Assembly: GCA_015179125.1 (NCBI GenBank)
Contig: WHVA01000090.1
Location: 62,001-126,000, forward strand
Length of the DNA: 64,000 bases
Reading direction: 5' to 3'
Source of the DNA: Gautieria morchelliformis
Taxonomy: Eukaryota > Basidiomycota > Agaricomycetes > Gomphales > Gomphaceae
Shown one piece after another: positions 4,578 through 37,980 of the stretch (its first letter is position 1; the number at the start of each line of letters is the position of its first letter). A model generated the notes under the pieces. It did not search any database. It saw nothing but the letters and a program-made list of their open reading frames with translations, and was not told where the DNA came from. Both the position numbers and the translations under genes were made by a program.

Positions 4578-4654
4578 TGCTAATATTTTCTCACGCGCCT
4601 GTAGGATAGGATTAGCAGTTCGGCGTACTCCGCAACTAATATATATTACAAACT

Positions 4655-4897
4655 AATATTGTCTATTGCGAGTCTTATTGTTCTCATGAAATTATAAGCG
4701 GCTACTGTCATGTAAAGTCTCCCTCAGTGGTTTGACACCGTGCAAACACTGAGGTAAGACATCATTCTATCCCTCGTATTGTATTTCGCTCACCTGTACG
4801 CTACAGTTGATTTATCGTCGTATAGGTAACTATAACAGTGGTTTGACACTGTGCAAACACTGAGTTGATTTGTCGTCGTATAGTCTTGTTATTATTA
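4655..4897 (+). mobile_element. Copia LTR fragment (LTR-a), cut by Helitron
   Basis: The sequence matches the last two thirds of the Copia LTRs at 15772-16116 and 25474-25821 in order and layout, though it is well diverged. The match starts at CTATTGCGAGTCTT, runs through a TATAAG box at 4693 and the A/intron/B/A/B module, and ends at the Helitron insertion point 4898. It is a fossil fragment; the 5' part is missing and no Copia coding sequence adjoins it. Confidence 0.75.
4725..4883 (+). repeat. LTR-a module: A, intron-like segment, B, then A-B joined
   Basis: Block A1 (4725-4753) starts CAGTGGTTTG and ends CACTGAG. It is followed by an intron-like segment (4754-4806; GTAAGAC...CTACAG, with CTCAC inside) and block B1 (4807-4825). 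After GTAACTATAA, block A2 (4836-4864) and block B2 (4865-4883) follow with nothing between them. A1 and A2 differ at one base, and so do B1 and B2. A TATAAG box starts 32 nt before A1. A can fold on itself (CTCAGT with ACTGAG, GTTTG with CAAAC). Confidence 0.85.
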
Positions 4898-9236: not shown

Positions 9237-10030
9237 CTAAGGTCGCTGAGGATGTTGCCGAGGTATGGGGAGTGGAGGAGGCAGCTGAGGTGCAGGGAGT
9301 GGCTGAGGATTGGGAGGTGGTGGTGGATGAGGTGGTACCAATGGAGGTCTGAGAATTGCATCTTCCTCTTGCCTGATTGCATTAGCCTGGGCCTGCAATG
9401 CTGCCACTCCTGCAGAACCCACAACAGGAGGATTAGCCCCCCATCTACGTCTATCCAATTGCTGCAATATAGCCGCCTGCTGATCCACCTGAGCATGCAA
9501 GTCTGCAATAAATGCAGAACCTACTACAGGTGCTGGCTGTACAGGGTCTGGCTGATTTCCTCTCAAAGGCTATAACTGAGGGAGAGCTGCTCTCTGAGCA
9601 AGGAGGGCCACCACCTGCACTCTGGGACTGGGATCAGGAGGATGTGATGGCCCAGCAACAGGTTGTTGACGTGATGATGGTGCAAGCATGGGAGGGCGTG
9701 ATGGCCCAGCAACAGGCTGTTGACGTGACGATGGTGCAAGAATGGGAGGGTGTGATGACCCAGCAACAGGTTGTTGATGTGATGATGGTGCAAGCACGGG
9801 AGGGTGTGGTGGCTGTTGACGTGAGGATGGTGCAAGTGTGGGAGGGCGTGGCGGCCCAGCAACAGATTGTTGAAAAGGATTGGCAACATTGCTTCCAGGA
9901 GGAGGGTGAGGGATGGGCAAAAGGTGGGGGTGGAGGGGGTGACTGGTCCCGAGCTCTGATACGTGCTCTCTGATCAGTGAGTGGAGTCATTCGCTGCTGC
10001 GCCTCCCTCGCCTGTGCACGCTCCCGCTGA
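9237..10030 (-). pseudogene. Proline-rich N-terminal region of the Helitron protein
   Basis: Upstream of RepHel the minus strand encodes RQRERAQAREAQQRM near 10000, then a repeat-rich stretch of the type LAPSSRQQPVAGPSHPP, then a Gln/Pro-rich stretch (DLHAQVDQQAAILQQLDRRR, and PPHPPPPPNPQPLP). A stop at 9237 separates it from the zinc-ribbon start of RepHel. Such low-complexity leaders are common in fungal Helitron proteins. Start codon and introns are uncertain. Confidence 0.55.
9640..9880 (-). repeat. 54-bp tandem repeats in the Helitron leader
   Basis: About four to five units of roughly 54 bp, each with CAACAGGTTGTTGACGTGA on the plus strand, encode 18-residue repeats on the minus strand. 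Units differ by a few bases, and one is shorter. The opposite strand is also open here because the repeat has no stops in several frames. Confidence 0.8.
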
Positions 10031-15771: not shown

Positions 15772-16116
15772 TGTAGGAGTGAATGCGTAAGCACAATAGC
15801 AAACTGCGTCACCCCATGTCACCCCATTGTGACAAAGCATGCGCAGCTTCATTGTTCTATATTTTCCTTTGTCCTGATGTCCCTATTGCAGTTTAATTCT
15901 CATTGTTCTCAAGAACTATAAGTAGCTAAGTATCTTCTGTGCTCTGCCTCAGTACTTTGCATCAAAGCATCTACTGAGGTAAGAAACTCGTTATTAGTCT
16001 CGCATCTATCTTAGCTCACCTATACGCTTGTAGTGTTATCGTATAGGTAAAATATTATTAGTACTTTGCATCAAAGCATCTACTGAGTGTTATCGTATAG
16101 TTCATATATTCTCACA
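15772..16116 (+). repeat. Copia-1 5' LTR (LTR-b)
   Basis: 345 bp starting TGTAGGAG and ending CTCACA. It has a TATAAG box at 15917 and the A/intron/B/A/B module at 15950-16100. It is close in sequence and length to the solo LTR at 25474-25821. Confidence 0.88.
15950..16100 (+). repeat. LTR-b module: A, intron-like segment, B, then A-B joined
   Basis: A1 is 15950-15978 (CAGTACTTTG...CTACTGAG). The intron-like segment is 15979-16033 (GTAAGAA...CTTGTAG, with CTCACC). B1 is 16034-16046 (TGTTATCGTATAG). After GTAAAATATTATTA, A2 (16061-16087) and B2 (16088-16100) are joined directly. A1 and A2 agree over 28 of 28 bases and B1 and B2 over 13 of 13. TATAAG lies 33 nt before A1. Confidence 0.9.
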
Positions 16117-16181
16117 GGTTATTGGGCCCCGCATCCCACTAGCACATTCTCTAGCTCATTCCTCGCTGCTCCCGCTCTACA

Positions 16182-19100
16182 ATGTCCACCACAACCCTCA
16201 CTACAACTGATCTTCTTCCCTCTTCTGTCCCGAAACTCCTGGCCAACGGTCTCAACTGGACCGCGTTTTTGATGCGCTTCCAAGACACTGTCGAAGCAAA
16301 GGGTCTGTGCGGGCACTTTGATGGCACTACGACTCAGCCGTCAGTCAGCACTCCACCCACCGCTGACGAAGAAGAAGCCATCACAAAATGGGTTAAAGAC
16401 GAACGTACGGCGAAAGCTCTCCTTACTCACCTAATTCCTGACTCCACTCTCATTCGCGTCCATGGGAAGCCGTCTCTGAAGGATCGATGGGAACTCATCG
16501 TAACCAAGTTCTCATCGAAGGGGGCGTTTGCGCAGGCAGACCTACGCACTCACTTCATGGAGTCTAGATGTCCTGACAGAGGAAATGTGCATGAATTTCT
16601 TGATGGCCTACGTGTCAAGAAAGAAGAGTTAGCAACGTACGGTGTGGACATCGAGGAAAAAGATTACCGGTCAACCATCATAAAATCCCTTCCCCCTCAC
16701 CTCTCCGCTTTCGCATCAACCTACTAGCAGGCGCCAAGCTCTACAGTACGATCAAGACCGTAGACCCTGACAAGCTCATCACGTTAGTATCTGAAGAGTA
16801 CAAGAGACACGCTGCTCACAAGTCTCGTCACCCTGGGCACACTAGTGGAAAAGGCGAAGAAAAGGATGAAGCGATGTTCGTATCAGCGAATGGAAAGGGA
16901 AAGAAGTTTGAGCGCAAACCAAAGGGTACTTGCTGGAACTGCGGAGACACGGGACACTATAAGAATAAGTGTCCTAAACCTGCTAAAGCCACTGGTGACA
17001 AGAAACACAACTCACCTAGAGGTGGCAGCTCTGCTAATGCGGCTGTGTAATCAGATGGCGAAGACGGTGCCACCTTCTTCGCTGATTGGGACTCGGATGA
17101 CGAGCTACCTACACTGTTATCGAACTATGAATCCGATTCAGATGCAGAGGATTGTGCAGACGACTGGTTTTCTGAAGTTGGAGATGACTCAGAAAATGGT
17201 TGTGAGATAGAGGAGTTGCCTACTGATGAAACCAACACCTGTTCGCTTGTCAGCGTCGACCAAGAGGATGCACACGCAGTCTGCGCAGAGGTCAACAGTG
17301 CGGCGGAAAACTCACCTCAAACCGAAGTATATGACTCCGGATGCACAAGGCACATAACGCCATACCGAGATGCGGTAAAAGGTTTTACCTCAATAAGCCC
17401 AAAATCCTTCCGAGCTGCAAACAGAAAGAGTTTTGAGGCTGTCAGCATGGGTGAAATGGTTATCGACGTACCTAACGGAGTAACCACATCTCAGCTCAAT
17501 TTGACTGAGGTTTTGTACTCACCCAACGTTGGCTACACGCTCATATCCATTGGACGACTCGACAATGCAGGGTTCGCGGTGATATTTGCAGACGGCAAAT
17601 GCATTATACGGGAATGAAATGGGCAGCTCGTTGGCACTGTCCCAAAATCAAGACATGGCCTCTATCATGTTTCACATGAGCAGGAGACAGCAAATTCAGC
17701 GGAGGACGTACTCACCCTTGACCAATTCCATCGACGGATGGGTCACATCTCTCCTGAAACAGCCAAAAGATTAGTTACAAAAAGGTTTGTAACAGGGGTA
17801 AAACTTACGACGCTGCCAACGGACAAACCGTTCTTTTGTGAATCCTGCGTATATGCCAAAGCAACCCGAAAGCCCGTTCTAAAAATCAGGGAGGGCAATA
17901 GAGCCTCTGCTTTTGGATATGAAGTCCATAGTGACCTATGGGGACCAGCACCAGTCGCAACAAAAGCCGGAAAAAGATATTACATTACCTTCACCAATGA
18001 CATGTCACAATTAACCCACCTATACCTTTTACGCACCAAGGACGAGGCACTAGAAAGACTATGACTCTTGGGTCGCCACCCGACTTGGCACTTCTATCAA
18101 GAAGCTGCACTCAGACCGAGGAGGCGAATACCTAGGACAAGGATTTGCTGGTTATTTGAAATCCAAAGGAACGGCACAAAAACTCACGGTGCATGATACT
18201 CCACATGAAGCTGCTTTTGGAGAGAAACCTGACCTTAAGCATGTACGCGAGTGGGGTGAAAAGGCCTGGGTAGGCACGGAAGGTGGTGACAAGCTCGGTG
18301 GAAGAGTAAAAGAAGGACGCTGGATGGGTATCGATGAACGAAGTAAGGGTGTCCGCATTTACTGGCCAGAAAAGAAAACCGTCACAGTGGAACGCAATGT
18401 CCACTTCGACAACAGTACCACGTCAGTTTCTCGCCTCGAGGGGGAGAATTGGCAGATCATCGAGACGGAAACCAACGCACCAGTAAAAGCACCAGAAAAC
18501 CCCCTTCCCTCCAGTATGCACACCCCACCCGTGCCAAACGTAGCAAATCCATCAGACTCTGACACCGAGGCACCTGCCAAATGCCTGCGCAAACCCAGTC
18601 AGTGTGTTCGAGACATCCTCGAAGGACATGGAGCGTCCTCTCACCAAACATCAGATCCTGTTATCCCAACAGGAGTACAGATGCCTTCCATCATCGAAAA
18701 AGTGCCGGAGATGCTGGAAGGAGAAGGGACAGCCAACTGGATGACGGTAGCTGATGAAGTCAACGGGTATGTACTCGTAGCTGAAACCAGCGAGGTCGAG
18801 GCTATCGAACCTCGAACCTTGGCCGAAGCAAAACGATGGCCCAACTGGCACCTATGGGAGTCCGCCATACATGAGGAGTTAGCTGTGCTCCGTGAGGCTG
18901 GTACCTGGAGACTCACCGATGCTCCAAGCGGTGCGAACATTGTCGGATCCAAATGGGTGTTTCGAGCTAAGAAGGACGCTGCTGGGAACGTTGTGCGATA
19001 CAAAGCATGACTCGTCGTGCAAGGTTTCTCACAAGTTCCCGGCGTCGATTACTTTGACACCTTTGCTCCAGTCGCAAAGTTGGCATCAATACGCACCGTA

Positions 19101-20372
19101 CTAGCGCTGGCCACTGCAAACGACATGGAGCTTCATCAGATCGATATTAAGGGCGCGTACCTAAATGGAGAACTCACCAACAAAGAAACTATATACATGT
19201 CTCAACCACCAGGGTATCCTGCACCAAGCTCCTCAGGAAAGGTCTGTCTCCTGCAAAAGATGTTGTATGGGTTAAAGCAGTCCGGTCGTCGTTGGTACCA
19301 AAAACTTGTTGAGATTATGCTCACCAAGTTACTCTTCTCCCACTGTGACGTAGATCAGGCCGTTTTCTTTCGACACACAAACAATGTGCTCACGATCGTC
19401 CTGGTACATGTCAACGATTGCACTATTGCTGCAACGTCGGAGATGGCGGTAAAGCAATTCAAAGTCGGAATCTCGAAGCATGTTGAAATCACTGACCTCG
19501 GCGAGCTGCATTGGCTATTAGGCATCGAAATCAAACGGGACAGAGAGAGACGAACCATACATCTTTCACAGCGGTCCTACATAGAGTCAATTATACGAAG
19601 GTACAATTTCGAAGATCTCAAACCTGTATCTATGCTGATGGACCGTGGCCTACTCCTCTCCATGTCACCAACGCCTAAAATCACGGCCAAATGGGCTAAA
19701 ATGCGAGACATACCTTATAGGGAAGCTGTTGGATCGCTCATGTATGCCGCCCTAGGAACCCTCCCTGACATCGCCTTCGCCGTACAAGCCGTGTCCAGGT
19801 ATTCGACCAAGTTCGCCCCCGGTCTCTGGAGTGCTGTTAAATGAATCTTTCAATACCTAAAAGGCTCTATGAACCTATGGTTGACTTACGGACATACGAA
19901 GAATGAATTGATCGGATACGCCGATGCCGATGGCAGTATGGCCGAAGACAGACATGCAATCTCAGGATACGCATTCATCATAAACGGCGGAGCCGTATCC
20001 TGGAGTGCAAAGCATCAGTCGATTGTGTCCCTGTCCACGCCGGAAAGCGAATACGTAGCTGCTGCTCACGCCGCGAAAGAGGCCTTATGGCTCCGGTCAC
20101 TGATTGAACAACTTTTCGACGAAAAAATGTCACCCACCACGCTGTTTTCCGACAACCAATCCACCATCGCGCTTGCCAAAGACCATCAGTATCACGCCAG
20201 AACCAAACACATTGACGTGCGATACCATTTTATCCGATGGATCGTTGAGAAAGGCGCAATTCGATTAGTTTATTGCCCGACCGATGACATGGTAGCAGAC
20301 ACGCTTACAACAGGGCTGCCGTCTGCGAAGGTAAAGCACTTCGCGGTTGAACTAGGGCTGACTACGGTTTGA
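16182..20372 (+). pseudogene. Copia-1 gag-pol region
   Basis: Gag begins at the ATG at 16182 (LANGLNWTAFLMRFQD, the usual Copia start). A zinc knuckle CWNCGDTGHYKNKC lies near 16940. The protease motif YDSGCTRHITPYRD is near 17330, the pre-integrase motif MGHISPETAK near 17740, and the integrase core is partial near 17870-18160. The reverse transcriptase spans about 18850-19840 (HQIDIKGAYLNGEL, LYGLKQSGRRWYQ). RNase H spans 19869-20372 (GYADADGSMAEDRHAISGY, SDNQSTIALAKD, ARTKHIDVRYHF). These parts package, mature, copy and integrate the element. The region is a fossil, broken in several places. Confidence 0.88.
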
Positions 20373-20379
20373 GGGGGAG

Positions 20380-20581
20380 TGTAGGAGTGAACGCGTAAGC
20401 ACAATAGCAAACCGCGTCACCCCGTGTCACCGGTCACCGAGGTCACAGCGATCCGCCTGAGAACAATGATTCCCCTTGTCCTTGTACTGCGCTCCTTATA
20501 TTCCCTACTCCTTTCACTACTCGTACCTTGTACGCGTCATCGGCTTATATCAGTATGCCGAAGTACCGCTTTATTCAACAG
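20380..20581 (+). repeat. Copia-1 3' LTR start, then unrelated sequence
   Basis: The LTR opens TGTAGGAGTGAACGCG directly after the polypurine tract and matches the 5' LTR to about 20433. The remaining roughly 150 bp, up to where the segmental duplication starts, do not match the 5' LTR and lack the A/B module. Either the LTR is truncated or it is a chimera with another LTR family ending near TTCAACA. Confidence 0.6.
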
Positions 20582-20926
20582 CGGCATTATCATAGGGTGT
20601 GATAAGTAAAATGGTAGGTCGTCTGCTCTGGCACATGCTGGGCGTAGTGGAGGTGAGGTCTGTTTGATGCAATAGCGCCACCGCCGACGATGTACAACGC
20701 CTGGCATTCGCTGCACAATCCTGTTGCACCGACATTGTAGCCACGAGCATGTTGAAGGATCCTCGCGGTGCTTCTCGACATCAGCCTTCTGACGCCCAAC
20801 TCAGCTCAGCACGCACTAGGTATTTCCTCCATGTGCACCCTTCCCACCGCCACGCATGCCCCTCCATTCCTTTCTTACACCGTCCTTTGTCTTAGCTGTC
20901 TAAAATCTCACCTTCCCCAGCTCACC

Positions 20927-21390
20927 ATGGTGAACATCACCTATGATACACCTCCCGCAAGTGCTCATGGCGCCGTGCTGATCCATGCTCTATCTCAGCC
21001 CAGTCCATCCAATGGTACCTCTCCAACTCAACCATGGGTGGCATCTACTTCCCCGGCGACATCTCCTGGGTCCTCGCCTCCACCGCCCTCCTCTGGCTCT
21101 TGATTCCCAGCGTCGGTCCGTCTCTTCCTCTATTCCCCCTCACCCGTCTCACCCCTCTGTAGGATTCTTCCACTACGGTCTCTTCGTGGCAAAAACGCCC
21201 TCAGCATGATACTCTTGAGTGACATGTGTTTGGGGGACGTCCTTTGAGGTTAGCTCCATTTCCCCCAGCGGAAGACCGTGCTGCTTTGTCCCCCCTTCCT
21301 CCTTGTCGCTAACCTCTTTCCCACAGTGGTTCTTCTGGGGCGTCTCCCTTGCAATGAGACTGGCCATCGCTATATTTGCAATTTGAGTGA
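20927..21390 (+). pseudogene. Ammonium transporter (Amt/Mep) 5' gene fragment, left copy
   Basis: Starting at the ATG at 20927 the frame gives MVNITYDTPPASAHG, then MGGIYFPGDISWVLASTAL, which is the N-terminus and first transmembrane helix of fungal ammonium permeases. Two short introns (about 21116-21163 and 21247-21330) and exon pieces GFFHYGL and WFFWGVSLA follow. Amt/Mep proteins are trimeric plasma-membrane channels for ammonium uptake. Only about the first two helices are present. The copy is more decayed than its partner at 34030-34488, with a frame slip near 20970 and altered motifs (family GLLRRKN and SLAFSET are lost). It cannot encode a working transporter. Confidence 0.72.
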
Positions 21391-21976
21391 GTAGCCTGCG
21401 CCCAAAAAAATCGAATCAATTTTTATAAGTCGGGTCGTGCATGGATTTGGGATCCACGTGTTGTTGACGCGACACGGTCGTGAAGTGACAGGGTGTACGT
21501 CTCTCGGTTCCCGTTTCCTGCTTCGTGGCTTCCTGTGGTTGGCAGGGCCGTGAGCAGACTGAAGCAGCAGGAGCAGTCCTGTCGCTTCTCTGGAATTCAC
21601 GTCGCATCTCCCCCTATTTGTTTGCTTCATCCCTCTATATGCCAACCCTATTCCTTATTCATTGTACCCCGCTCCCGCTATCCCTGATCTGTGCCATCGC
21701 TTGCTGTTCCATGTGGGCACTCCTTGTCTTCCTTGACGCTTTTGAACTCGAGGCAGGACCTCGGTATGGGTAGCAATCAAGAGAGGCAAGCTGCCCAGGA
21801 TCAGCGTGTTATCTTGCGATCAGACTGCAAGTAAAGGCAGACTCAGAACGGAGTCGCATATGGCGGGGTCAAGCTGGGTGGAGATTGCATTGGTATTGCG
21901 ATCTGGATTAGGCATGCTACACGTTGGTGTGGATATGCATGATGGAGTATTGACACGAATCGTCAGAATAGGGCTT

Positions 21977-22199
21977 GGGTGGGGGGGGGGGCTATTGTGT
22001 GGCTGTGGAACAACTAGGACGCGAGTCGTGACGCACTGTACAGTTACCCATAACTTGGCTCCACAGAAGCCACTGCCCCCATAAGAGCCCATGGAGACCC
22101 GGCTATTTATCAGTTGCGAGGACGGCTGTGTATATAAATAGACAGATCACGCCGCAGCACCCACTCACGCACAGTAGACTGAAGTCCCCAATCCCAATG
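21977..22199. other. 220-bp segment present only in the left arm
   Basis: Aligning the two arms, the sequence runs AATAGGGC directly into AAATCCGAACA in the right arm. In the left arm about 220 bp intervene, starting TTGGGTGG followed by a G run and ending AATCCCAATGC. It contains a TATA-like TATATAAATAG near 22130. It is either a small insertion here or a loss in the right arm. There is no coding sequence. Confidence 0.5.
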
Positions 22200-22404
22200 C
22201 TAAATCCGAACAGTCCATAATGAGTATCTGCACCTCGGCCTGGGTCCTTCTTTGTACGCTGCACGCTACTCACATGAACACGTCACTGCTTCGACGGAAG
22301 CAGCAGAAAGGCGATCAATGGAAGCATCCAGCGCCAATCTCCAAGTGACAACAGAAGCACAGCGGCAAGTTGCCAAGATCAGGGGGAAGAAGCGCAAGAA
22401 GTGA

Positions 22405-22470
22405 AGTAGAAGTAGCCAAGAACCCGAAGCCAGGAACCCGAAGCCAGGAACCCGAGGCCAGGAACCAGAA
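22405..22470. repeat. Short tandem repeat AGGAACCCGAAGCC
   Basis: About four to five imperfect 14-bp units. The corresponding place in the right arm (33165-33225) holds fewer, diverged units on the other strand (GGTTCCTGGCTTCGGG). No gene is supported between 22200 and 24790. The longest open stretches are frames through biased sequence, and the corresponding frames in the other arm do not keep their protein sequence. Confidence 0.6.
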
Positions 22471-24584
22471 GTCAGGCAGTCGAAGCAATGCGCTAGGGGA
22501 CACGTGGCGCCATGCGGACAATTCATCTTTCAAGCGCCGGATGAGTCACGTGGGAGCAACCGTCGTCGCAGCAGAACAGCAGAGAGCACAACGTGGTATG
22601 AGCCTGCCTCCTCATTCCCCCTCAATGACACGAGACTGCCCGCGCCCATCGACTGCACGCTGCGTGGCATGTAGACTACTAGATAGACAGGGTGCGGCCG
22701 CGCGGCCGCGGGGGGTAGAGGGCCGACGCACAGGGAAGAGGACGGAAAGAACGGCGAATGGAAGGCAAAGGTGGGTGGGTCAGCACATGTTGCGCATGAT
22801 TAAGGTGACGACATAAAGAGGAAATCCGACGGGCTCATCGAGTCTCGCCTTCACCCTGAATCCACTGCCAAGCCACCCGTTTGTAGACAGTGGAGTGACC
22901 CAGTGGAAGAACCCATCTGAAGCAACTGGTAATGGCATAGGCATCGGCATCAGGCCGGGGATGCGCACTCACTCCCCCACACTGAAACCATCCATCGAGT
23001 CGACACGAGACAGGGACAATGCAGCATGAAAAAGAACGGAAACGACGACGCCAATGCCGGAGGCACGAGTCAACCCCCCGCCGAGAGAATAAGAAACACT
23101 CCCTGAGAATGCGAGCACGAAACACACAACAAGTATGACCAAGGAACACTCACCGCAGCGTCATCCTCAAATCAACCACCCTGTCCTCCTCCGGCCCCAA
23201 CTCGTCCTCGCCCGAATTACCCATACCCTCGACGTCGCCACCAACCTCCTCCCCGTCATCTACTCGGCCGCCGTGGGGTACACGGAACGGGAGCCATATG
23301 GCAGCACAGGCGTGGAGCGGAGCCATTTTAGGCTGGGACTGCTGGCGGTTGTGGGGAGGGCCCGGTCGAATTGACGGAGGTGAACAGGTGGCGCCGTGGT
23401 GATGGAGCGGTGGGCAAAGCGAGGACGTGGACGGGGACTTTAAAAGGTGGGTTCGGTGCCGTTTTGTGGAAGCAGCGGTGCTGGGGCAGTTTTTTTGTTT
23501 TGTTTTTTTTGGTGCTGATCCCGGGCTCGTTGTCTGCACGGCGCCGACGGAATCGCTACCATCCTGACCCCCTCGCGGAGCCCTTGGTGGAAGACTTCAA
23601 AAAATATGGGGTATCCTCCTCACCGAAGGCCTCCCTCCAAGCATGTGTCGAACGCGAGCTGTTTACCCTCAACACTAGCCACGCCACGCCCGCATGCCTC
23701 AGACTCATCCCGGCTGGGTTAGGATGAGTGTGAGCTGAATTGACCCAGGAACGACTCATTGACGCCTTGACGCACTGAAGTGTCGATGTGTCATCCATCA
23801 TACTCATTGAATGAGGTTTCGTCCGTCCTTCATCCTGTGCCAGGCATTGTCTTACCGTTTCATCGTCCCAGGTCGTTCTCTCATCCTTCCATCTCATTCA
23901 CATCCTGTCGCTCATCCTTCCATCTCATTCTCATCCTGTCGTCCTCTCATCTCATCGTCCCACCCCCGTCATTCTCCCCTGTCTCGGAGTCCATGTGGGT
24001 GTGCGATCGTGGACGCTCGTCCATCCGAGTCGTCCCGCTCCGCTCATTGTATCCTGTTGTCCTCTCACCGTCGCCTGCATCACATCCCCTAGCTCCAGCG
24101 ACGCCCAACGGCACCATTTAAACCCCCTCAACTCCAAGGGCCTAGAGCAACGAGGGACCCAAGAACACCACGACATGCCCGACACATGGCGTAGACTGCG
24201 CAGGTGGTCTTGCGTTCGACGGGTAGATGTGATGATGTCATATGGCGGAGGAGTGGGTGAAGGCGAGAGTAGTGCTTATATGGAGAGGAGTTGCGTGATG
24301 GAACGGGAGGCAGAACGGCAAGTGGACTGGAGAGAGACAGGAAGGAAACGACAACGATGGAACAACAGGAGCGGTGAAGTGCCAAGAAGCAGTCGGTACT
24401 AGCTCAGGGAGAACAAACTCGCACACGGACACGGTGCGGCACATCACCAGGGGTCCGAACTTAGTGGGAAGAGGGAGAAACCGTGGAAGGTGGACGAAGA
24501 GTGGCCCAGGACAGATCTAAGCTAGGGTCGGAGGGTGGATAGAAAGACTCTAGCAATAGACGGTTATTGAGAATCGCCAGTTAC

Positions 24585-24745
24585 GCCACACATGACAGCC
24601 CCGATCAGGCACGTGCCACGGGATCACGATTGCGCCACACGTCGATTACGCCATGGGATCACGATCACGCGACACGATCAAGAACACGCCTCGGTCATCA
24701 ATAATGCCACGGGATCACGATCACGGCACGATCATCAATGGCTGC
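24585..24745. repeat. GGATCACGATTACGCC-type repeat array, left arm
   Basis: Six or more imperfect units built on GGATCACGAT with CGCCACACG spacers. The same kind of array lies in the right arm at 30590-30740 on the opposite strand (CGTGATCGTG words). It borders a WD40 scrap in both arms. Confidence 0.65.
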
Positions 24746-24789
24746 CCTGATCGACGTGATCCTGAGCGCTCTCGGTATATCTATATCGG

Positions 24790-25402
24790 CTACTCAAGCT
24801 CGGTGATATAAGAAACAAGCATTGTGAGTACCAACTTGGTCAACCATTTCACCCAGATCATGTCATCAACCCCTGAGACGATCGGTCTGCCGTCTTGACA
24901 GAACACCACAGAGTAGACAGTCAAAAAGGACAGATGAATTGTGGTTGAAAGGTCCTGAAACGAGGCAGATCGTGGTAGGACTGGGGACAGCATGACCCAG
25001 AGTATAGGATGCAGAGACTGGCCTTGACGTCAGGAATGGGTGTGACCTTCGAATCGCTTTGAGACGGCATTGTCAGTCTCTGGGTCCCACACCCGGTTAT
25101 TATTCTCTGGGCTCAGGCTGTGCGCCAAAGCCCAGGCTTGGGCTCGTCGAATTCCGAGGCCGGCCCTGACCCGAGCCCGACCAGGGCTCGGGCCTGCGTG
25201 GGAAGTGGATGCCGTACACGTACACCTTCTCCGCCGCGCCATGTTGCAATATTAGCCGAATGACGTCAACGTTACCACCATACAAAGCCGCTAACAATGG
25301 GGTGCCATCGTGGCGGACCTGTGTGAGGAGGACATATCTATTGCGTGCTAAGATGTGCTTCAGAAGACTGCTGTCGAGAAGCACGGCAAGGATCTTTAAC
25401 AA
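24790..25402 (-). pseudogene. Ankyrin and WD40 scraps of an NLR-like gene, left copy
   Basis: The minus strand encodes DGTPLLAALYGGNVDVIRLI near 25270-25310, an ankyrin repeat. It is followed across a GC-rich patch by VWDPETDNAVSKRFEGHTHS (near 25040-25090), the end of a WD40 repeat, and further on by SVVFCQDGRPIVSGVDDMIW (near 24880-24920), the core of the next WD40 repeat. Proteins with a NACHT domain and ankyrin or WD40 repeats are common immune-type receptors in mushrooms. No NACHT part is seen. The frame is interrupted several times; the GC-rich patch interrupts it. Confidence 0.6.
25120..25205. repeat. GC-rich patch with GAGCCC/GGGCTC inverted words, left
   Basis: Words such as GGGCTCAGG, AGGCTTGGGCTCG and GCCCGACCAGGGCTCGGGC make a foldable stretch of about 85 bp. 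An inverted copy is at 29882-29975. It resembles in composition the patch at 575-790. It cuts ankyrin from WD40 coding sequence and may be a small mobile element. Confidence 0.55.
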
Positions 25403-25473
25403 TACTCATGGAAGCTCCAATGTCGGCGCAACAGAGATCGTGAAGCGAATGCCTAGCTTTTGTACATCGTCGG

Positions 25474-25821
25474 TGTAGGAGGTGAACGCGTAAGCCAGGG
25501 GCAAACCGCGTCACCCCATGTCACCCCATTGTGACAACATATGCGCAGTTTCATTGTTCTACGTATATTGTCCAAAGTGCCCATTGTAGTTCAGATTCCA
25601 TTGTTCTCCTATACTATAAAGTAGGTAGCTAGAAGTCCTTTTTCCTCAGTACTTTGCACCCGAGCAACTACTGAGGTAAGACATTCAGTATATTTCTTAT
25701 ATTCATTTTTACTTATATGCTTGTATAGAATACTCGCATAGGTAACCTTATACAGTACTTTGCACCTGAGCAACTAGTGAGAATACTCGCATACATAAAT
25801 ATATTTATAACTAGTCTTACA
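25474..25821 (+). mobile_element. Solo Copia LTR (LTR-c)
   Basis: 348 bp, TGTAGGAG to CTTACA, with no Copia coding sequence on either side. The flanks are GTCGG and GTTGG, a one-mismatch 5-bp target duplication. The uninterrupted site is visible in the related repeat at about 34757-34761 (CATCGTCGGCGCTGTCGC). It contains TATAAAG at 25615 and the A/B module. It probably arose by recombination between the two LTRs of a full element, leaving one. Confidence 0.9.
25647..25794 (+). repeat. LTR-c module: A, intron-like segment, B, then A-B joined
   Basis: A1 is 25647-25675 (CAGTACTTTGC...CTACTGAG), the intron-like segment is 25676-25728 (GTAAGAC...TTGTATAG), and B1 is 25729-25741 (AATACTCGCATAG). 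After GTAACCTTATA, A2 (25753-25781) and B2 (25782-25794) are joined directly. A1 and A2 differ at two bases, and B1 and B2 at the last base. TATAAAG lies 32 nt before A1. Confidence 0.87.
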
Positions 25822-27045
25822 GTTGGCGCTGGCGCTAACACTTGGAGTCCCAGCTGGCCGTGCCCGCCCCTCGGGTCTGTGCAGCCTGCCTGGGATCGCC
25901 ATTGTCACATCATTTCATTTCCTGTCACACGTGGCAGTCCGCCAATCCCCTGTCACCCCTCCCCATATACCATCGCCGCCCTGCCCTGGCCTACCCTGCG
26001 GGTGCGGAAGATTGTCGATACTCAGTGATATCGACAATCTCCCTTGCTGACATGTCTTCCCTGACCGCCTATCATCCCTCCCACAAGACGGACATCCATA
26101 TCACATTAGCTGCCCTTACCCTCCGCAACGTCGGACGTCTCTATCTCACACACGCAAGTTTCCTATTGTATCTCCCGCAGAGTGTCACTGTCTAAAGCCT
26201 GAGCACAAGGCATGGATGGTGTTCGCCTGCATTAGTATGTCCGGCATCAGAGGGGATCTGCACAGCGCCAAGAATATCTGCTTCGGAAGCAGGGGCAAAT
26301 AGTACTCTCATTTCTGACCTCGGGCGTCTCTATCACACACTTGGGACGCGTTCCTGCATGGCGGATATACGTTCACGTCATACATTAGCCTCATTCCCAG
26401 AAGGGCCCACTTATTCCGATCGACGATCATCTTCTGCTATCATACGATCGTACAAAATATCTACACTACGAAGCAGCACCCCCGCGTTCCGCAGGCCCTT
26501 GGTGTACCATGCGCAGGTAAACACTTATTATTCATAAATACTTAAATCACACATAGCAGCCCAGCACACCCGCGTACAGTCGGTTTGTGGATATTTGGCG
26601 CATACTCGTCCACGCGCATAGAGCCCACTGCTGATTCAATCCTCCGGAAGCTCGCAGAATTACATGTGCATCCCAGTATACAGTACTGAACTTAACCACA
26701 TCCTATCCACGCATCCTTGACCCTTCTGGCTCCCGGGGGATCGTTATATACTTCCTTCTGCACCGTAACCACACATCACACCACCCTCACCGCTTCCTGT
26801 ACCAAGCTCACGGAAACCATGAGGATCACTCAAAGTGAGTATATACCGCACTGCCGCACCAAGGTTGGGCCATCCGGCCGGGGGGAGCAGCATAGTACCA
26901 TACGTAGGCATAACAGCCAGTGGGCCCGAGGCAACGCGCTGTACTGCGGCTCCAACAATCCCACGAAAAGGAAAGCCCGAGGGGACACCACTACACTTCT
27001 CCATATATTAATGGTATTTTCGTAGCAGCGTGAGTATCCGCCCCC
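25822..27045. repeat. Segmental repeat copy 1 (Y-Z unit)
   Basis: The part 25822-26340 recurs at 34761-35740 (same orientation) and at 28790-29220 (inverted). The part 26385-27045 recurs at 27958-28605 (same orientation, close to identical in its last 250 bp) and more distantly at 36220-36640. Shared words include GGGCCCACTTATTCC, CGTACAAAATATCTAC and TATTCATAAATACTTAAA. Open frames such as 26744-27004 are repeated with the DNA, but no domain is recognised, so I do not call a gene. Confidence 0.7.
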
Positions 27046-27957
27046 CGTGCGCCATGGACGTCCCAATCGTGGATCAACATCAACATCCCCGGGAATAGCT
27101 TTTTCCGTAAATTGTAAATTGCACCGAAGCGCTTACAGTCCGTTGCACCTAATTCTAACCCTTCGTCATGGGGAAACAGCGTCCCTATAGCACCACCGTA
27201 GACATGGTAGCACTTGGTTTCTGGTGCAGTAGTCTGATTGCAGTTCATCTGTGGATCAGGGTTCATGCTACATGGTTTCTTCCAGATCAACATCTCCTTC
27301 GACATCAACGTCTACCTACTACATTCCGCTTGCTTGTGCCAGGTATCACAGTACGGGACGGGGGTCACAAGCTGGTTCATCAGCAGGGTCATCTGCAAGG
27401 TAGGGCTCAAAATAATCCAGAGCTGTGCCCTTGAGGAAGGACAAAACATAGTTCACTTTCATAGAACCATCTTGGAATGCTTGGGGTTTGGCATGGAAAT
27501 TCAGCATACACTGGAGACGAAATCCTCAGAGCTTTTTCAGGTCTGAGCCATCAAACTGGTCGGGTTCCTGGAGTTTAGCCTTCAAGTCAATTCGGTCTCC
27601 ACCACCACCAAGCCCATTGTCAGCGAGCTTTTCCAAAGCCCCCCATACTGTGATACCTGGCACGAGCAAGCTGAATGTAGTAGGTAGATGTTGACGTTGA
27701 AGGAGATGTTGATCTGGAAGAAACCATGCAGCATGAACCCTGATCCACAGATGAACTGCAATCAGACTACTGCACCAGAAACCGAGTGCTACCATGTCTA
27801 CGGTGGTGCTATAGGGACGCTGTTTCCCCATGACGAAGGGTTAGAATTAGGTGCAACGGACTGTAAGCGCTTCGGTGCAATTTACAATTTACGGAAAAAG
27901 CTATTCCCGGGGATGTTGATGTTGATCCACGATTGGGACGTCCATGGCGCAATCGCC
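27046..27957. mobile_element. Gypsy gag scrap between 0.3-kb inverted repeats
   Basis: The left repeat (about 27046-27355) and right repeat (about 27650-27957) are nearly identical in inverted orientation, beginning and ending GCGCCATGG/CCATGGCGC. Between them the minus strand encodes LQEPDQFDGSDLKKLRGF and LSFLKGTALDYFEP, a piece of Gypsy Gag. The inverted repeats encode nothing I recognise. The whole 0.9 kb lies between two direct copies of a 0.65-kb segment (26385-27045 and 27958-28605). It is a fossil fragment; the rest of the Gypsy element is absent. Confidence 0.7.
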
Positions 27958-28605
27958 TCATTCCTGGAAGGGCCCACTTATTCCAATCGTCTTCTGACAT
28001 CACACGATCGTACAAAATATCTACGCCCCGAAGCATCCCCCCCGTGTTTCGCAGGCCCTCGCTGTACCATGCACCAAATCTTATTATTCATAAATACTTA
28101 AACCACCCATAGCAGACCAGCACGCCGGCGCACGGTTGGTTTATGGGTATTGGGTGCATACATGTCCATGCGCATAGATCCCACTCCTGGTTCAGTCCGC
28201 ATGAAGTTGGCAGAATTACCGTGTCCATCCCAGTATGCAGTACTGAAACCACATCCTATCCACGTATCCTCGACCTTTCTGGCTCCCGGGAGGGCGTTAT
28301 ATACTGCCTTCCGCACCGTAACCATACACCACACCACCCTCGCCGCTCCCTGTACCAAGCTCACGGAAACCATGAGGATCGCTCAAAGTGAGTATATACC
28401 GCACTGCCGCACCAAGGTTGGGCCATCCGGCCGGGGGGAGCAGCATAGTACCATACGTAGGCATAACAGCCAGTGGGCCCGAGGCAACGCGCTGTACTGC
28501 GGCTCCAACAATCCCACGAAAAGGAAAGCCCGAGGGGACACCACTACACTTCTCCATATATTAATGGTATTTTCGTAGCAGCGTGAGTATCCGCCCCCTG
28601 CGGCC
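27958..28605. repeat. Segmental repeat copy 2 (Z unit)
   Basis: This is a direct repeat of 26385-27045, beginning near CCTCATTC and ending AGCAGCGTGAGTATCCGCCCC. Divergence is concentrated in the left half. After it, 28606-28790 is unrelated to copy 1 and holds no recognised gene. Confidence 0.75.
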
Positions 28606-28789
28606 AATCACGAACAACCCTCAGGGCACGCTCGGCGACACGGTTGTGCCTTTCTAGATCTTGGAGTGGACAATAATTGATATACGACAGCTCTCGAGCG
28701 CCCGATCTCGCGGTACGCAGCGTTATCTCGGGTGGCGAGAAAGGGGTTGAGAGCAAAACCTGGCATTTCGCTCCCAAGCTCTTTTGTGT

Positions 28790-29611
28790 CGACGCCCGAG
28801 GTCAGACATGAGAATACTATTTGCCCTGCTTCTGAAGCAAATATTCTTGGCGCTTCGCAGACACCCTCTGAGGTCGGACATACTACTGAAGGCGAAGATC
28901 AGCGGTGACTTGTGCTCCAGGATTTACACAGTGACATGTAAGGTGGGGTGATGCCATCGCGGACTTCGGGTAGCAGGCTTGTCGCAGCGATTAGTTGGAA
29001 TGGGCTCGGAAGCGGGAGAGACGATAGAAAACTTGCGTGTGTGAGATAGAGACGTCCGACCCTGCGGAGGGTAAGGGCAGCTAACGTGATATGGATGTCC
29101 GTCTTGTGGGAGGGATGATAGACGGTCGGGGAAGATGACATGTCACTGAGGTCAGCCAGGGAGATTGTCAATAATCACCCGCAGGGTAGGCTAAGCCAGG
29201 AGCTGAAGTAAGCCACATCTATAAATACCAGAACTGTCACTTATTCATGCGGTCATTCCTGTCTTTCGCCTCCATCTACCCCCACTGGTAAGATGTAGGC
29301 GAAGCTTTTCTTTCCCCTCCCTCCACTCCCTAGTCCAATTAGCGCTTTGGGTGGTGGTATAGCCTGCCACGTCCTCGCGCTCGAGGCTTGTCGCCCTCTG
29401 ACGCGTTCCGACACAATCACGTCATGCTGTGGACGTGTTGTGGGTTGCACGCCCTCAGGGACCTGCAACCGGAAGTTCCCGCCTCTCGGCAGTGATTTCC
29501 GCGGATCCGTACCTGGCCCCCAAACTCAGTGGAAACAATTGACCTCCAGGTTGGTCAAGTGTTTGCCGCCACTTCACTCCCCGCGATTCAGGGACTCATT
29601 AATTAGCCTCG
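28790..29611. repeat. Segmental repeat copy 3 (inverted Y unit) and unique spacer
   Basis: 28790-29220 is the reverse complement of the 26000-26340 type sequence (shared words GTATGTCCG, CCAAGAATATCTGCTTC in copy 1). 29221-29611 is mostly unique to this place, with a promoter-like TATAAATA at 29220. No coding sequence is supported. Confidence 0.6.
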
Positions 29612-29699
29612 CATTCGCTGCACGCTCTCTGTTGCGCCGACATTAGAGCTGCCATGACCATTGTGAAAGATCCTTGCCGTGGTTCTCGACAGCAGTCTT

Positions 29700-30430
29700 C
29701 TGACGCCCAGCTCAGCGCAATAGGTATGTCCTCCTCCCATCGGCCCGCCATCTGATCCACCAAGGATATGGCGCTGCATTCTCAGCGGCTTCGTATGGTG
29801 GTAACGTTAATTCAGCTAATATTGGAACATGGCGCGAATACCAACCAAAGGGGTGGAGAAGGTGTGTGTGTATGGCATCCACTTCCCACGCAGGCCCGAG
29901 CCCGACCAGGGCTCGGCTCAGGGCCGGCCTCGGAATTCGACGAGCCCAAGCCTGGACTTTTGCGCCCAGCCTGAGCCCAGAGAATACTAACCGGGTGTGG
30001 GACCCAGAAACTGACAATGCCGTCTCAAAGCGATTCGAAGGTCACACCCATTCCTGACGGCAAGGCCAGTCTCTGCATCCTATACTCTGGGTCATGCTGT
30101 CCCCAGATCCTAACACGATCTGCCTCGTTTCAGGACCTTTCAACCACAACTCATCTGTCCTTTTTGACTGTCTACTCTGTGGTGTTCTGTCAAGACGGCA
30201 GACCGATCGTCTAAGGGGTTGATGACATGATCTTGGTGAAGGATGTCACAACCGGCGCGGTCGTTTCTGGACCATTCGAGGACCATACCAACGCGGTCAG
30301 CTCTGTAGCGTTGTCGCAGCACGGCAAAGGGATTGTGTGGGGATCGTATGACAGGACTATTCGGGTATGGGATGTAACGACCGGCAACGTCATTTCAGGG
30401 CTATTCAGGAAAAACTCGAATATACATGTC
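29700..30430 (+). pseudogene. Ankyrin and WD40 scraps of an NLR-like gene, right copy
   Basis: The plus strand shows LIQLILEHGANTNQRGG (29800-29860, ankyrin), then VWDPETDNAVSKRFEGHTHS (near 30000-30050). It then shows DVTTGAVVSGPFEDHTNAVS and GKGIVWGSYDRTIRVWDVTT (30240-30390), two adjacent WD40 repeats with the expected spacing. This copy preserves one more WD40 repeat than the left copy. Frames are broken between the pieces by a GC-rich patch (29882-29975) and stops near 30214. The role, if any, would have been ligand recognition in an NLR-type protein. Confidence 0.6.
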
Positions 30431-31196
30431 AGGCGTAATATGGAGCGCCTGAGAGGTACAGTAGGTGATTAATTCTCCTACCATCCTGACAATGGTTGGC
30501 CAAGTTGGTACTCACAATGCTTGTTTCTTATATCACCGAGCTTGAGTAGCCGATATATATATACCGAGAGCGCTCAGGACCACGTCGATCAGGGCAGCGA
30601 TTGATGATCGTGGCGTGATCGTGGTCGTGTGGTGTGACCGATGAGCATGGCGTGACTCTGATCGTGTGGCGCATGATCCCTTGGCGTACTCGACCCTTGG
30701 CGTAATCGTGATCTCGTGGCACGTGCCTGATCGGGGCTGCCATGTGTGGCGCAACTGGCGATTCTCAATAACCGTCCATTGCTAGAGTCTTTCTATCCAC
30801 CCTCCGACCATAGCTTAGATCTGTCCTGGGCCCGTCTTCGTCCACCTTCTACGGTTGCTTCCTGTTCCCACTAAGTTCGGGCCCCTGGTAGTGTGCCGCA
30901 CCGTGTCCGTGTGCGGGTTTGTTCTCTCTGACCTAGCACCGTCTGCCTCTTGGCACTCCACCTTTCCTGTTGTTCCGTCGTCGTCGTTTCCTTCCTGTCT
31001 CTTTCCATTCCGCTTGCTGTTCTGCCTCCCGTTCCATCACACAACTCCTCTCCATATAAGCAGTACTCTTGCCTTCACCCACTCCTCCACCATATGACAT
31101 CATCACATCTACCTGTCGACGGCAAGACGATGTGCACAATCTACGCCATGTGTCGGGAATATCATGGCGTTCTTGGGTCCATCGTTGCTCCGGGCG

Positions 31197-31517
31197 GAGC
31201 GTCCTCCCTTCGCATATTCGTGTCCTAAAGCCACCTCGAGATCTCACCTAACAGCCTTGTCAGGTCGGGCGTGGTGTAGTATGACATTATGCAGTGCGTC
31301 CTTCCCTGTCAACCTCACATGCGTCGACGGCCAGCGGTGCAGTACAAGCTCTCACCCACACTCTCCAATCCTCACGTCCCGTCGTAAAAACCGGTCCCGC
31401 CCATCCCCCCCCCCTCTAACTGAAAATCAACGCAAAACTCGCATGCTGGCCTAGTATGCAGCTCGATAGTGATGACGGCTGCTTAACTCACCCTGTCTTT
31501 TGTCAGCATGAAGGTCT
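31197..31517. other. 320-bp segment present only in the right arm
   Basis: In the left arm the sequence passes directly from CCTCGTTGCTCTAGG to CCTTGGAGTTGAGGGGG (24119-24160, read in reverse). In the right arm about 320 bp intervene, including a C run near 31415. There are no clear terminal repeats and no coding sequence. Confidence 0.5.
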
Positions 31518-34029
31518 AGGCGCTTGGAGTTGAGGGGGTTAAATGGTGCTGTTGGGTGTCACTGGAGCTAGAGGATGTGATGCAGGCGATGGTGAGAGTA
31601 TCACACGACACGGTGAGAGGACAACATGAGGCAATGAGCGGAGTGGGACGACTCGGATGGACAAGCGCCCAAGCTCGCACCCACATGGACTCTGAGACAA
31701 GGGAGAATGACGGGGGTGGGACAATGTGATGAGACGACGACAGGATGAGAATGAGGTGGAAGGATGAGAGAACGAAATGGGATGATGAAACAGTAAGACA
31801 ATGCCTGGCACGAACGATGAAGGACGGATGACACATCGACACTTCAGTGTGGCAAGGACTCAATGCGTCGATCCTGGGTCAATTCACCCCACACTCATCC
31901 CAACCCAGCCGGCCTGAGTCTGAGGCATGCGGCCGTGGCGTGGCTAGTGTTGAGCGTAAACAGCTTGCGTTGGACACATGCTTGGAGGGAGGCCTTCGGT
32001 GAGGCGGATACCTTATATTTGAAGTGTCCTACCAAGGGCTCCGCAAGGGGGTCAGGACGGTAGCGATTCCGTCGGCGCCGTGCAGACAAAAAAAAAAAAA
32101 AAAAAAAACTGCCGCAGCGCTGTTGCTTCCACAAAACGGCTACGAACCCAGTCCCCGTCCACTTCTCTCCTTACCGCTCCATCACCACGGCACCACGGCG
32201 CCACCTGTCCACCTCCGTCAATTCTACCGGGCCCTCCCCACAACGGCCCGCAGTCCCAGCCTAAAACGGCTATGCTCCATGCCTGTGCTGCCATATGACG
32301 CCCGTTCCGTGTACCCCATGGCGGCTGAGTAGGACGTTGATGATGGGAAGGAGGTTGCTGGCGACGCCGAGGGTATGGACAATTCGGGAGAGGACGGGTT
32401 GGGGCTGGAGGAGGACAGGGTGGATTGATTTGAGGACGCCGCTGGGGTGAGTGTTCCGTCATCATCCTGGTTGTGTGCTTCATGCTTGCATTCTCAGGGG
32501 GTGTTTCTTCTTCTTTCGGAAGGAGGTTGACTCGTTGCGCCCGTATTGGCGTCATCGTCGTTGCTTTTCTTTTTCATGCTGCATTGTCCCTGTCTCGTGT
32601 CGAGATGGATGGTTTCAGAGTGGGGGAGTGAGTGCGCATCCCCCATCTGAGGCCGGTGCATATGCTACTACCCTTTTCATCTGATGGGTTCTTCCACTGG
32701 GTGACCCGACCTGGGTGACCGACCGTCTAGAAACGGGTGACTTGGCAGTGGATCCAGGGTGAAGGCGAGACTCGATGAGCCCATCGGGTTTCTTCTTTCT
32801 GTCATCACCTTACATAACCATGCGCGACATGTGTTGACCCACCGACCTTTGCCTTCCATTGGCCGTTCTTTCCGGCCTCTTCAAGAGCCTGTGCGCCGGC
32901 CCTCTACCCCCCGCAGCCGCACCCTGTCTATCTACGTACCGCGCAGAGTGTAGTGGATGAGCGTGGGCGGTGTTGTGTCATTGAGGGGACAGATGGGCTA
33001 TGAGGAGGTAGACTCATACCGCGTTGTCCTCTCTGCTCTGCGTACCCGAGGTTCTGCTGCGTCCCCCAGACGACGGTTTCTCCCACGTGACTCATCCGGC
33101 GCTTGAGAGATGAATTGTCCGCATGGTGTCACGTGCCCCTTGCGCGTTCCTGCGGCTTTTGGGTTCCTGAATTCCGGTTCCTGGCTTCGGGTTCCTAGCT
33201 TCAGGGTCCTGGCTACTGCACTTCTTGCGTTTCTTCTCCTGATCTTGGCAACTTGCCGCTGTGCTTCTGTTGTCACTCGGAGATTGGCGCTGGATGCTTC
33301 CATTGATCGCCTTTCTGCTGCTTCCGTCGAAGCAGTGACGTGTTCATGTGAGCGCGCAGCGCGCAGACGAGGACCGAGGCCGCTGTGCAGATGCGTATTA
33401 TGGAATGTTCGGATTTGGCCCTATTCTGATGATTCGTGTCAAGACTTGCCCACACCAACGCGTAGCCTGCATAATCCACGCACAAGACTCAACGCAATCT
33501 CCACCCAGCTTGACCCCGCCATACGCGACTCCGTTCTGAGTCTGCGTTTACTTGGAGTCCGAAGCCCAAGAGAGCGCGTCACGCATAGGTACGCTTTTAG
33601 CTGATCCTGGGCAGCTTGCCTATCTCGATTACTACCCATACCTAGGTCCTGCCTCGAGTTCAAAAGCGTCAAGGAAGACAAGGAGTGTCCACACGGAAGA
33701 GGAAGCGATGGCGCAGATCAGCGATGGCGGGAGCGGGGTACAATGAATAAGGCATAGGGTTGGCATATAGAGGGAGGAAGCAAACGAATAGGGGGAGATG
33801 CGACGCGAATTCCAGAGAAGCGACTGGACTGCTCCTGCCGCTTCAGTCTGCTCCCCGCCACGCCAACCGCAGGCAGCCGCGAAGCAGGCAACGGGAACCG
33901 AGAGACATACACCCGGTCACTTCACGACCGCGTCGCGTCAACAACACAGACACGTGACGTGGATCCCAAATCCGCGGCACGACCCGACTTATAAAAATTG
34001 ATTCAATTTTTTGGGCGCAGGCTACTCAC

Positions 34030-34488
34030 TCAAATTGCCAAAATAGGGACTGCTTGTCTCACTGAAGGCGAGGGAGAGGCCCCAGAAGAACCACTGTGGG
34101 TAAGAGGTTAGCGACGAGGAGGAGGGGGGGGAAAAGGCAGCACGGTCTTCTGCTGGGCGAAATGGAGCTAACCTGAAAGGACGACCGCCAAACACATGTC
34201 ACTCAAGCCGATCATGCTGAGGGTGTTTTTGCGACGAAGGAGACCGGAGTAGAAGAATCCTACACAGGGGTGAGACGGGTGAGGGGGGAATAGAGGAAGA
34301 GACGGACCGACGCCGAGAATCATGAGCCAGACGAGGGCGGTGGAGGCGAGGACCCAGGAGATGTCCCCGGGGGAGTAGACGCCTCCCATGGTCAAGTTGG
34401 ATAACCATTGGATGGACTCGGCTAAGATAGAGCGTGGATCAGCGCCATGAGCACTCGCGGGGGGCGTATCATAGGTGATGTTCACCAT
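34030..34488 (-). pseudogene. Ammonium transporter (Amt/Mep) 5' gene fragment, right copy
   Basis: The better preserved copy starts at the ATG at 34488 on the minus strand and gives MVNITYDTPPASAHGADPRS, then ESIQWLSNLTMGGVYSPGDI and SWVLASTALVWLMILGVG. After an intron comes FFYSGLLRRKNTLSMIGLSD, and after a second intron WFFWGLSLAFSETSSPYFGN before a GTGAGT donor near 34030. These are the signature first segments of Amt/Mep permeases. Introns match those of the left copy, so copying was at the DNA level. The gene stops there: downstream sequence does not continue the transporter. Upstream DNA (34490-34620) is shared by both copies, so promoter sequence was probably included. Confidence 0.78.
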
Positions 34489-34860
34489 GGTGAGCTGGGG
34501 AAGGCGAGATTTTAGACAGCTAAGACAAAGGAAGGTGTAAGAAAGGAATGGAAAGCGTGCGTGGGCGGCGGGAAGGGTGCACGTGGTGGATTGGGTGGCG
34601 GTGTGGGGCGAGGAAATACCTAGTGCGTGCTGAGCTGAGCTGGGCCTCATGAGACTGATGTGACGTCGAGAAGCACGGCGAGGACCCTTCACGATGCTCG
34701 TGGCTACAATGTCGGCGCAACAGAGATTGTGCAGCGAATGCCAGGCGTTGTACATCGTCGGCGCTGTCGCTATCGCATCAAAAAGACCGCACCTCCACTA
34801 CGCACTGCATGTGCCAGAGCAGACGACCTACCATTTCACTTGTCACACCCTATGAGAATG

Positions 34861-37806: not shown

Positions 37807-37980
37807 TACTAGCTACACCTTCCATATAAGTATGCCTTGATTAACATACGGTCGATCCAGGGCCAGGCACCATGCACGGATAAGAAACCTGCGATATACA
37901 TAGGAGGGTGGGAAGAGGGAATTGTGGGGAAGAACAGATATATATGTGGAGAAGATATCATACATGGCGAAGGCGGCCCA

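Follow-up and report, generated by a model that had tools for sequence, protein, structure and literature searches.

Copia LTRs of Gautieria morchelliformis carry a putative two-intron R region beside its own joined copy

Four Copia LTRs (L1 to L4) in a 64,000-nucleotide stretch of Gautieria morchelliformis DNA (the window) share a layout in which block A1 is followed by a GT...AG segment of 53 to 57 nt, block B1 and a spacer of 11 to 13 nt, after which both blocks recur as A2-B2, joined exactly at the splice point. We propose that this R region probably combines a pair of small introns with a landing site copied from the spliced 5' end of the element's RNA, A2-B2 being rewritten in each replication cycle. 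On anatomical and evolutionary grounds, rewriting from spliced RNA would be the best-supported explanation of a layout that is itself solidly observed. The sample consists of four LTRs from one window, two of which (L2 and L3) are close relatives.

Results

Layout of the LTRs and their parent elements

The spacer starts GTA in all four LTRs and measures 11 nt in L1, 13 nt in L2, and 12 nt in L3 and L4. A previous interpretation of the window, made from its letters alone (the sequence-only reading), had described the order A, GT...AG, B, GTA spacer, joined A-B in these four LTRs, and the order is confirmed here, with coordinates correct to 1 to 2 nt. The reading also had an AG closing B2, and with it a second intron; such an AG is found in L1, L2, and L4, while B2 of L3 ends CATAC. 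Introns and exons below are predicted ones.

4600-4897, plus strand: L1, LTR classed as Copia-type on its initial TG, its TATA, and the layout of R
4726-4753, plus strand: A1 of L1
4754-4806, plus strand: intron 1 of L1, 53 nt
4807-4825, plus strand: B1 of L1
4826-4883, plus strand: intron 2 of L1, 58 nt, holding A2 (4837-4864) and B2 (4865-4883)
15772-16116, plus strand: L2, 5' LTR (345 bp) of a Copia element, TG...CA, with PBS-like GGTTATTGGGCCCC next to it; start common to L3 and the 3' LTR stub, end defined from the PBS-like motif at 16117
15917-15922, plus strand: TATA box of L2, beginning 34 nt before A1
15951-15978, plus strand: A1 of L2, predicted first exon, from the predicted +1 (CTC/AGT); forms a hairpin
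15979-16033, plus strand: intron 1 of L2, GTAAG...TTGTAG, 55 nt
16034-16046, plus strand: B1 of L2, predicted second exon
16047-16100, plus strand: intron 2 of L2, GTAAAA...TATAG, 54 nt, holding the spacer, A2, and B2
16060-16100, plus strand: A2-B2 of L2 (A2 16060-16087, B2 16088-16100), 41/41 identical to joined A1-B1; candidate spliced copy and predicted strand-transfer landing site
16182-20372, plus strand: gag-pol of the L2 element, broken by stops and frameshifts, with Retrotran_gag_2, Pol_BBD, gag_pre-integrs, SH3_retrovirus, and RVT_2 (Pfam)
20379, plus strand: stub of the 3' LTR of the L2 element, after PPT-like GAGGGGGAG, sharing its start with the 5' LTR
25474-25821, plus strand: L3, solo-like LTR (348 bp), flanks GTCGG/GTTGG (4/5 alike)
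25648-25675, plus strand: A1 of L3
25676-25728, plus strand: intron 1 of L3, 53 nt
25729-25741, plus strand: B1 of L3
25742-25794, plus strand: intron 2 candidate of L3, 53 nt, without a closing AG (CATAC), holding A2 (25754-25781) and B2 (25782-25794)
38474-38638, minus strand: R region of L4, in the 3' LTR of a Copia element
38638-38610, minus strand: A1 of L4
38609-38553, minus strand: intron 1 of L4, 57 nt
38552-38534, minus strand: B1 of L4
38533-38474, minus strand: intron 2 of L4, 60 nt, holding A2 (38521-38493) and B2 (38492-38474)
38735-40198, minus strand: pol fragment (RVT_2) of the L4 element; PPT-like GAGGGGGG lies downstream, and the fragment runs into LTR L4
38195-38271, minus strand: L5, an LTR-like region (by eye) past the pol end of another Copia copy, where the L4 element is inserted; A1 about 38271-38249

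Degenerate Copia elements lie in the window alongside many other repeats; none was found with both LTRs complete. The L2 element, from 15772 to about 20431, still has its 5' LTR, gag and reverse transcriptase of the copia type, and a PPT-like tract; of its 3' LTR the first 53 bp are present. Retrotran_gag_2 (E = 2e-18) and RVT_2 (E = 1e-50) were both matched in this element and RVT_2 in the L4 element (E = 1.5e-58), which gives the Ty1/copia combination of copia-type gag (L2 element) and RVT_2 (L2 and L4 elements). In the L2 element gag_pre-integrs and an SH3-like domain precede RVT_2, and the integrase core was unmatched in the pieces scanned. No attached coding region was recognised for L1 or L3, which are assigned to Copia by the likeness of their LTRs. 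L1 is broken 14 nt past B2 by a Helitron-like insertion, and the remainder of its 3' end was not found in the window.

The Helitron-like element itself extends from 4898 to about 9000, encodes Helitron_like_N and PIF1 domains on the minus strand, and has by eye a hairpin-CTAG end inside L1. We also observed three imperfect palindromes of roughly 380 to 410 bp, about 80 to 85% self-complementary (37401-37813, 42740-43148, and 40124-40502), the last of which, on reading, seems to split a Copia reverse transcriptase. A large, diverged inverted duplication pairs 20581-25452 with 29611-34864 at about 82 to 89% identity in pieces, and smaller direct and inverted duplications lie between its arms (26055-29135). 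An open reading frame at 34168-34797 (minus strand) resembles by eye the N terminus of an ammonium transporter; Pfam gave no family, perhaps through introns. A Transposase_21 (tnp2) domain of a CACTA-type DNA transposon lies at 57284-58066 (minus strand).

The copies match within each LTR

Joined A1-B1 matches A2-B2 at 45/47 bases in L1, 41/41 in L2, 38/41 in L3, and 46/48 in L4 (170/177 in total), compared with 25 to 32 of 41 to 48 between LTRs. When the GT...AG segment is left in place, matches of equal length reach only 35/47, 28/41, 29/41, and 32/48 (L1 to L4), mostly from A. Taken separately, A agrees within the LTR at 27/28 (L1), 28/28 (L2), 26/28 (L3), and 28/29 (L4) positions, and B at 18/19, 13/13, 12/13, and 18/19 (61/64 in total); gapped comparisons between LTRs give 15 to 24 of 28 to 29 for A and 7 to 13 of 13 to 19 for B. 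Thus, in all four LTRs of this window, A1 and A2 as well as B1 and B2 are closest to their partner in the same LTR, the relationship on which the sequence-only reading had staked its claim.

We scanned the window for donor-flanked 18-mers repeated 40 to 140 nt downstream with at most two mismatches. Of the 11 rows returned, 6 came from L1 to L4, 1 from L5, and 4 from other repeats, in which the second copy never ends in AG. The same scan of 20 first-order Markov sequences of 64 kb, a simulation that does not model repeat origin, returned no rows, and we rejected chance repetition. A scan with exact seeds for A-gap-B plus joined A-B gave 47 rows, 2 of which, in L2 and L4, had GT..AG as registered; L1 was present, shifted by a shared AG, L3 was missed through its mismatches, and the rest were other repeats or registers.

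Minisatellite-type repetition was likewise rejected: arrays exist in the window (about 9637-9873 and 47701-47822), and their rows in the two scans show neither an AG-ended second copy nor GT..AG. As a control we read by eye the direct repeats 47445-47747 and 53035-53336, which flank a Gypsy-type RVT_1/RNase H region, and saw no A-intron-B-AB layout; the scan rows at 47409 and 47745, in the Gypsy repeats, lack AG at the second end.

The copies end where a capped, spliced RNA would end

In all four LTRs the match between copies begins at AGT or 1 nt before it and goes no further than the end of B, where copy 1 runs into GTA, the putative second donor, and copy 2 runs into U5; in L3 the final base of B itself differs between copies. 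CTC precedes AGT in copy 1 only, and we liken CTC/AGT to an initiator. The A/B junction is GT/AG in all four LTRs, copy 1 having GT...AG there and copy 2 nothing. The junction can slide only over the shared AG, so that by our own arithmetic a GT/AG there has a chance of about 3/256 per LTR, the LTRs not being independent. These edges are those that would be expected of a second copy made from a capped, spliced RNA end.

The sequence-only reading had placed the RNA start at A1. A TATA box begins 33 nt (L1), 34 nt (L2), and 33 nt (L3) upstream of AGT, in keeping with such a start in these three LTRs; L4, which has no TATA near -33 of A1, does not share this feature. U5 of L2 is short (16 nt) and ends at the PBS-like motif.

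The proposed introns measure 53 to 57 nt (intron 1) and 53 to 60 nt (intron 2), and short introns suit fungi. Intron 1 has a GTAAG donor in L1 to L3. Branch-like motifs, loosely defined, occur 17 to 19 nt from the end of intron 1 in all four LTRs (CTNAY and TACTTA-like forms being allowed) and of intron 2 in L1, L2, and L4 (CTGAG being accepted); a strict YTRAY search of intron 1 matched in L4 only. In L3, intron 2 has a sole branch-like motif at 29 nt from its end in addition to its missing AG, and this LTR, with three differences between its copies, may have decayed.

Both copies change together in L2 and L3

L2 and L3 are alike in U3 (137/167, 82%), intron 1 (35/51, 69%), and spacer (7/12, 58%), which indicates that they are homologous. 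Across the 41 sites of A and B, they differ at 9 in copy 1 and 11 in copy 2; 9 of these sites are shared, 8 of them with the same base (hypergeometric P = 1.6e-7, in a test that assumes the duplication to be older than the L2-L3 split, as the shared layout suggests). All 5 differences in B1 recur in B2, which has one more. Because the differences recur in both copies, copies 1 and 2 evolve together, and we regard this co-evolution as well supported by the comparison. Had the duplications instead arisen separately in L2 and L3, the same mechanism would have acted twice.

The identity of the copies, these parallel changes, and the edges at AGT and the second donor all argue for the proposal of the sequence-only reading that the second A-B is rewritten from spliced RNA. 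Homogenisation of the DNA by gene conversion would also yield concerted evolution, and would do so without RNA, if an intron had been inserted into the first of two tandem A-B copies that were then kept alike. The converted tracts would be only 28 to 29 and 13 to 19 bp long and split by a nonmatching segment of 53 to 57 bp; gene conversion is generally poor on such short tracts, and nothing in it accounts for edges at AGT and at the second donor in all four LTRs. We regard this origin as quite improbable.

An equally improbable account is a single ancient processed duplication: the spliced leader would have been copied and inserted one time, and selection would now maintain the two copies, for instance as a pair of hairpins bound by protein. 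Together with the upstream CTC, A forms a hairpin in all four LTRs, so each copy could have a function of its own; A2 lacks the CTC. Selection on a fold, however, would not change loop and B bases identically in both copies, as happened between L2 and L3, and we already disfavoured the idea for that reason.

A proposed route through spliced RNA

Under rewriting from spliced RNA, transcription would start at A1, about 33 nt after the TATA box, and intron 1, between A1 and B1, would be spliced out near the cap. Intron 2, from the GTA after B1 to the AG ending B2 and thus containing A2-B2, would also be removed, leaving A-B-U5-PBS. Reverse transcriptase primed at the PBS would copy U5, B, and A up to the cap; in L2, with its PBS-like motif at 16117, this predicted strong-stop DNA would be 16 + 13 + 28 = about 57 nt, compared with 166 nt from unspliced RNA. 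In the 3' LTR, the intron would prevent such DNA from pairing over its full length at A1, whereas A2-B2, which stand joined at the end of that unspliced LTR, would allow it. Extension through the spacer, B1, intron 1, A1, and U3 would then give a daughter LTR with both introns and with A2-B2 rewritten from A1-B1. Landing at A1 would instead lead to intron loss. The copy in the 3' LTR would have to remain unspliced, a requirement that we count against the model. Once intron 2 had been removed, the 5' end would also be free of the second R copy and of any poly(A) signal which that copy might contain. The AT-rich spacer could have a further role in 3' end formation.

If only intron 1 were spliced, the repeat could have arisen, and be kept, by strand-transfer slippage from partly spliced RNA. 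Intron 1 is the better-looking of the two, having a GTAAG donor in L1 to L3. The resulting A-B-spacer-A2-B2 cDNA, however, should add a copy in each cycle on landing on A2-B2, and none of the four LTRs has three copies. We consider this alternative very improbable indeed.

If the RNA were spliced only once, by a single distal splice joining the donor behind A1 to the AG at the end of A2, it would read A-B2-U5, and A2 could still be rewritten from A1, with B1 as a by-product. A2 ends in AG in L1 to L5, and the segments so defined measure 106 to 117 nt in L1 to L4 and 54 nt in L5, which has a CTAAT branch-like motif 31 nt from the end. An intronic B1 should nevertheless drift, yet B1 and B2 agree at 61/64 positions, and the five sites at which B1 differs between L2 and L3 differ in B2 as well; the GTA after B1 is also left unexplained. 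For L1 to L4 we therefore consider this splice unlikely.

L5 may work by the distal splice. It contains a GTGAG...AG segment of 54 nt (38248-38195), the final 23 nt of which repeat the end of A1 (22/23), and no convincing B1 was found in it. A hairpin of at least 14 bp stands directly before the donor (region 38120-38345, minus strand; z = -4.6). L5 would be either a one-intron variant, in which the 3' end of the intron itself provides the landing site, or a two-intron form that has decayed. Because L5 has no clear B1, the two-intron form is not universal.

RNA folding

With the upstream CTC, A folds well in all four LTRs (z = -2.7 in L1, -3.7 in L2, -4.8 in L3, and -3.7 in L4). In folds that begin at AGT, the A hairpin is present in L2, partial in L3, and absent in L1 and L4; if the RNA begins at AGT, its absence in L1 and L4 counts against rewriting from spliced RNA. 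Covariation was seen in one of seven outer pairs of the hairpin, and shuffles equalled the observed values 34 to 201 times of 500.

A second stem, which pairs the end of intron 1 with the end of B1 and the second donor (ACCTATACG with CGTATAGGT in L2), occurs in the minimum-energy fold of all four LTRs, with shuffle P values of 0.04 (L1), 0.005 (L2), 0.135 (L3), and 0.03 (L4). Two of its nine pairs change in kind among L1, L2, and L4, L3 being left out for a bulge. As an idea only, this stem might keep the second donor masked for as long as intron 1 is present. Whole folds from A1 to the second donor were not exceptional (z = -0.4, -1.5, -1.2, and -2.1 in L1 to L4). MAFFT failed to bring the arms into register, both for the whole R regions and for the second stem, and no counts were taken from these alignments. 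Rfam returned no matches at the gathering threshold.

Discussion

The elements resemble Ty1/copia (Pseudoviridae) in their Pfam copia gag and RVT_2 domains, TG...CA LTRs, PPT-like tract, and PBS-like motif. We liken the PBS-like motif of L2 to the anticodon stem of the initiator tRNA; Drosophila copia and Ty5 are Ty1/copia elements with a half-tRNA primer. A classical R region directly repeats the end of an unspliced RNA. In contrast to the classical Ty1/copia R, an intron-containing and a putative spliced form of R stand here side by side in one LTR.

Our scans of viral contigs gave no relatives. A scan of genome contigs returned one Copia contig (L001, 4,866 bp), filed under a bacterial (Bryobacteraceae) metagenome-assembled genome; it carries a Copia gag-pol frame of 1,347 amino acids with 50-bp tandem repeats at both ends, and is probably eukaryotic contamination, perhaps assembled from a circle. 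The donor-flanked repeat scan gave four rows on this contig, all of them from the 50-bp tandem repeats and none with AG at the second end. Our searches of open-access papers gave no precedent for an LTR intron with its spliced copy, and passages on introns or splicing in PMC5408684 and PMC5014426 describe none, which is weak evidence of novelty.

Several known systems share parts of the proposed scheme. In HTLV-1 and BLV the major splice donor lies inside R, the genomic RNA is unspliced, and the spliced RNAs are subgenomic. The likeness is a splice donor within the R region of an LTR; the difference is that here the spliced RNA is the predicted template and the LTR would hold the spliced copy as acceptor. 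Hepadnaviruses and pararetroviruses also reverse-transcribe spliced RNAs, the products of which are defective deletions, whereas the layout described here would restore the intron in each cycle. Penelope-like elements retain introns and so resemble the present LTRs in keeping them through transposition; they belong to another class, without retroviral strand transfer. BARE is a Copia member. Like the scheme proposed here, it is an LTR retrotransposon with separate RNAs for translation and replication, its elements being "translated and replicated via distinct RNA pools" (PMC3735527, in the part of the text available); that part mentions no LTR intron or spliced LTR copy.

Introns are normally lost when processed RNA is reverse-transcribed, and a retroelement would be expected either to have no splice sites in R or to use unspliced RNA for replication. 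We lean, a little less firmly than for the structure of R itself, toward the view that this Copia lineage keeps its introns through an LTR that stores the spliced 5' end as the obligatory landing site of the first strand, spliced RNA being the template and the introns being regenerated in each cycle. The same splicing could tell the 5' LTR from the 3' LTR, the second R copy being lost at the 5' end and left at the 3' end.

What the retroelement would likely gain is an intron close to the cap, in a host with intron-dependent expression. Most of the genes tested in Cryptococcus neoformans, and reporters in Armillaria mellea, are reported to need introns if they are to be expressed efficiently (PMC3744415, PMC4935854), and Ganoderma lucidum likewise needs introns for efficient expression (PMC7017817). 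A retroelement in such a host would lose its intron by reverse transcription unless its LTR stored a spliced landing site.

The A-intron-B-GTA-AB signature can be searched for in any fungal genome and predicts the RNA start and the splice sites to the nucleotide. If our reading is true, it would explain how a cap-proximal intron comes to be present in a retroelement of hosts whose genes need introns for expression, and these LTRs would follow a different replication logic, in which an LTR is stable only when its RNA is spliced.
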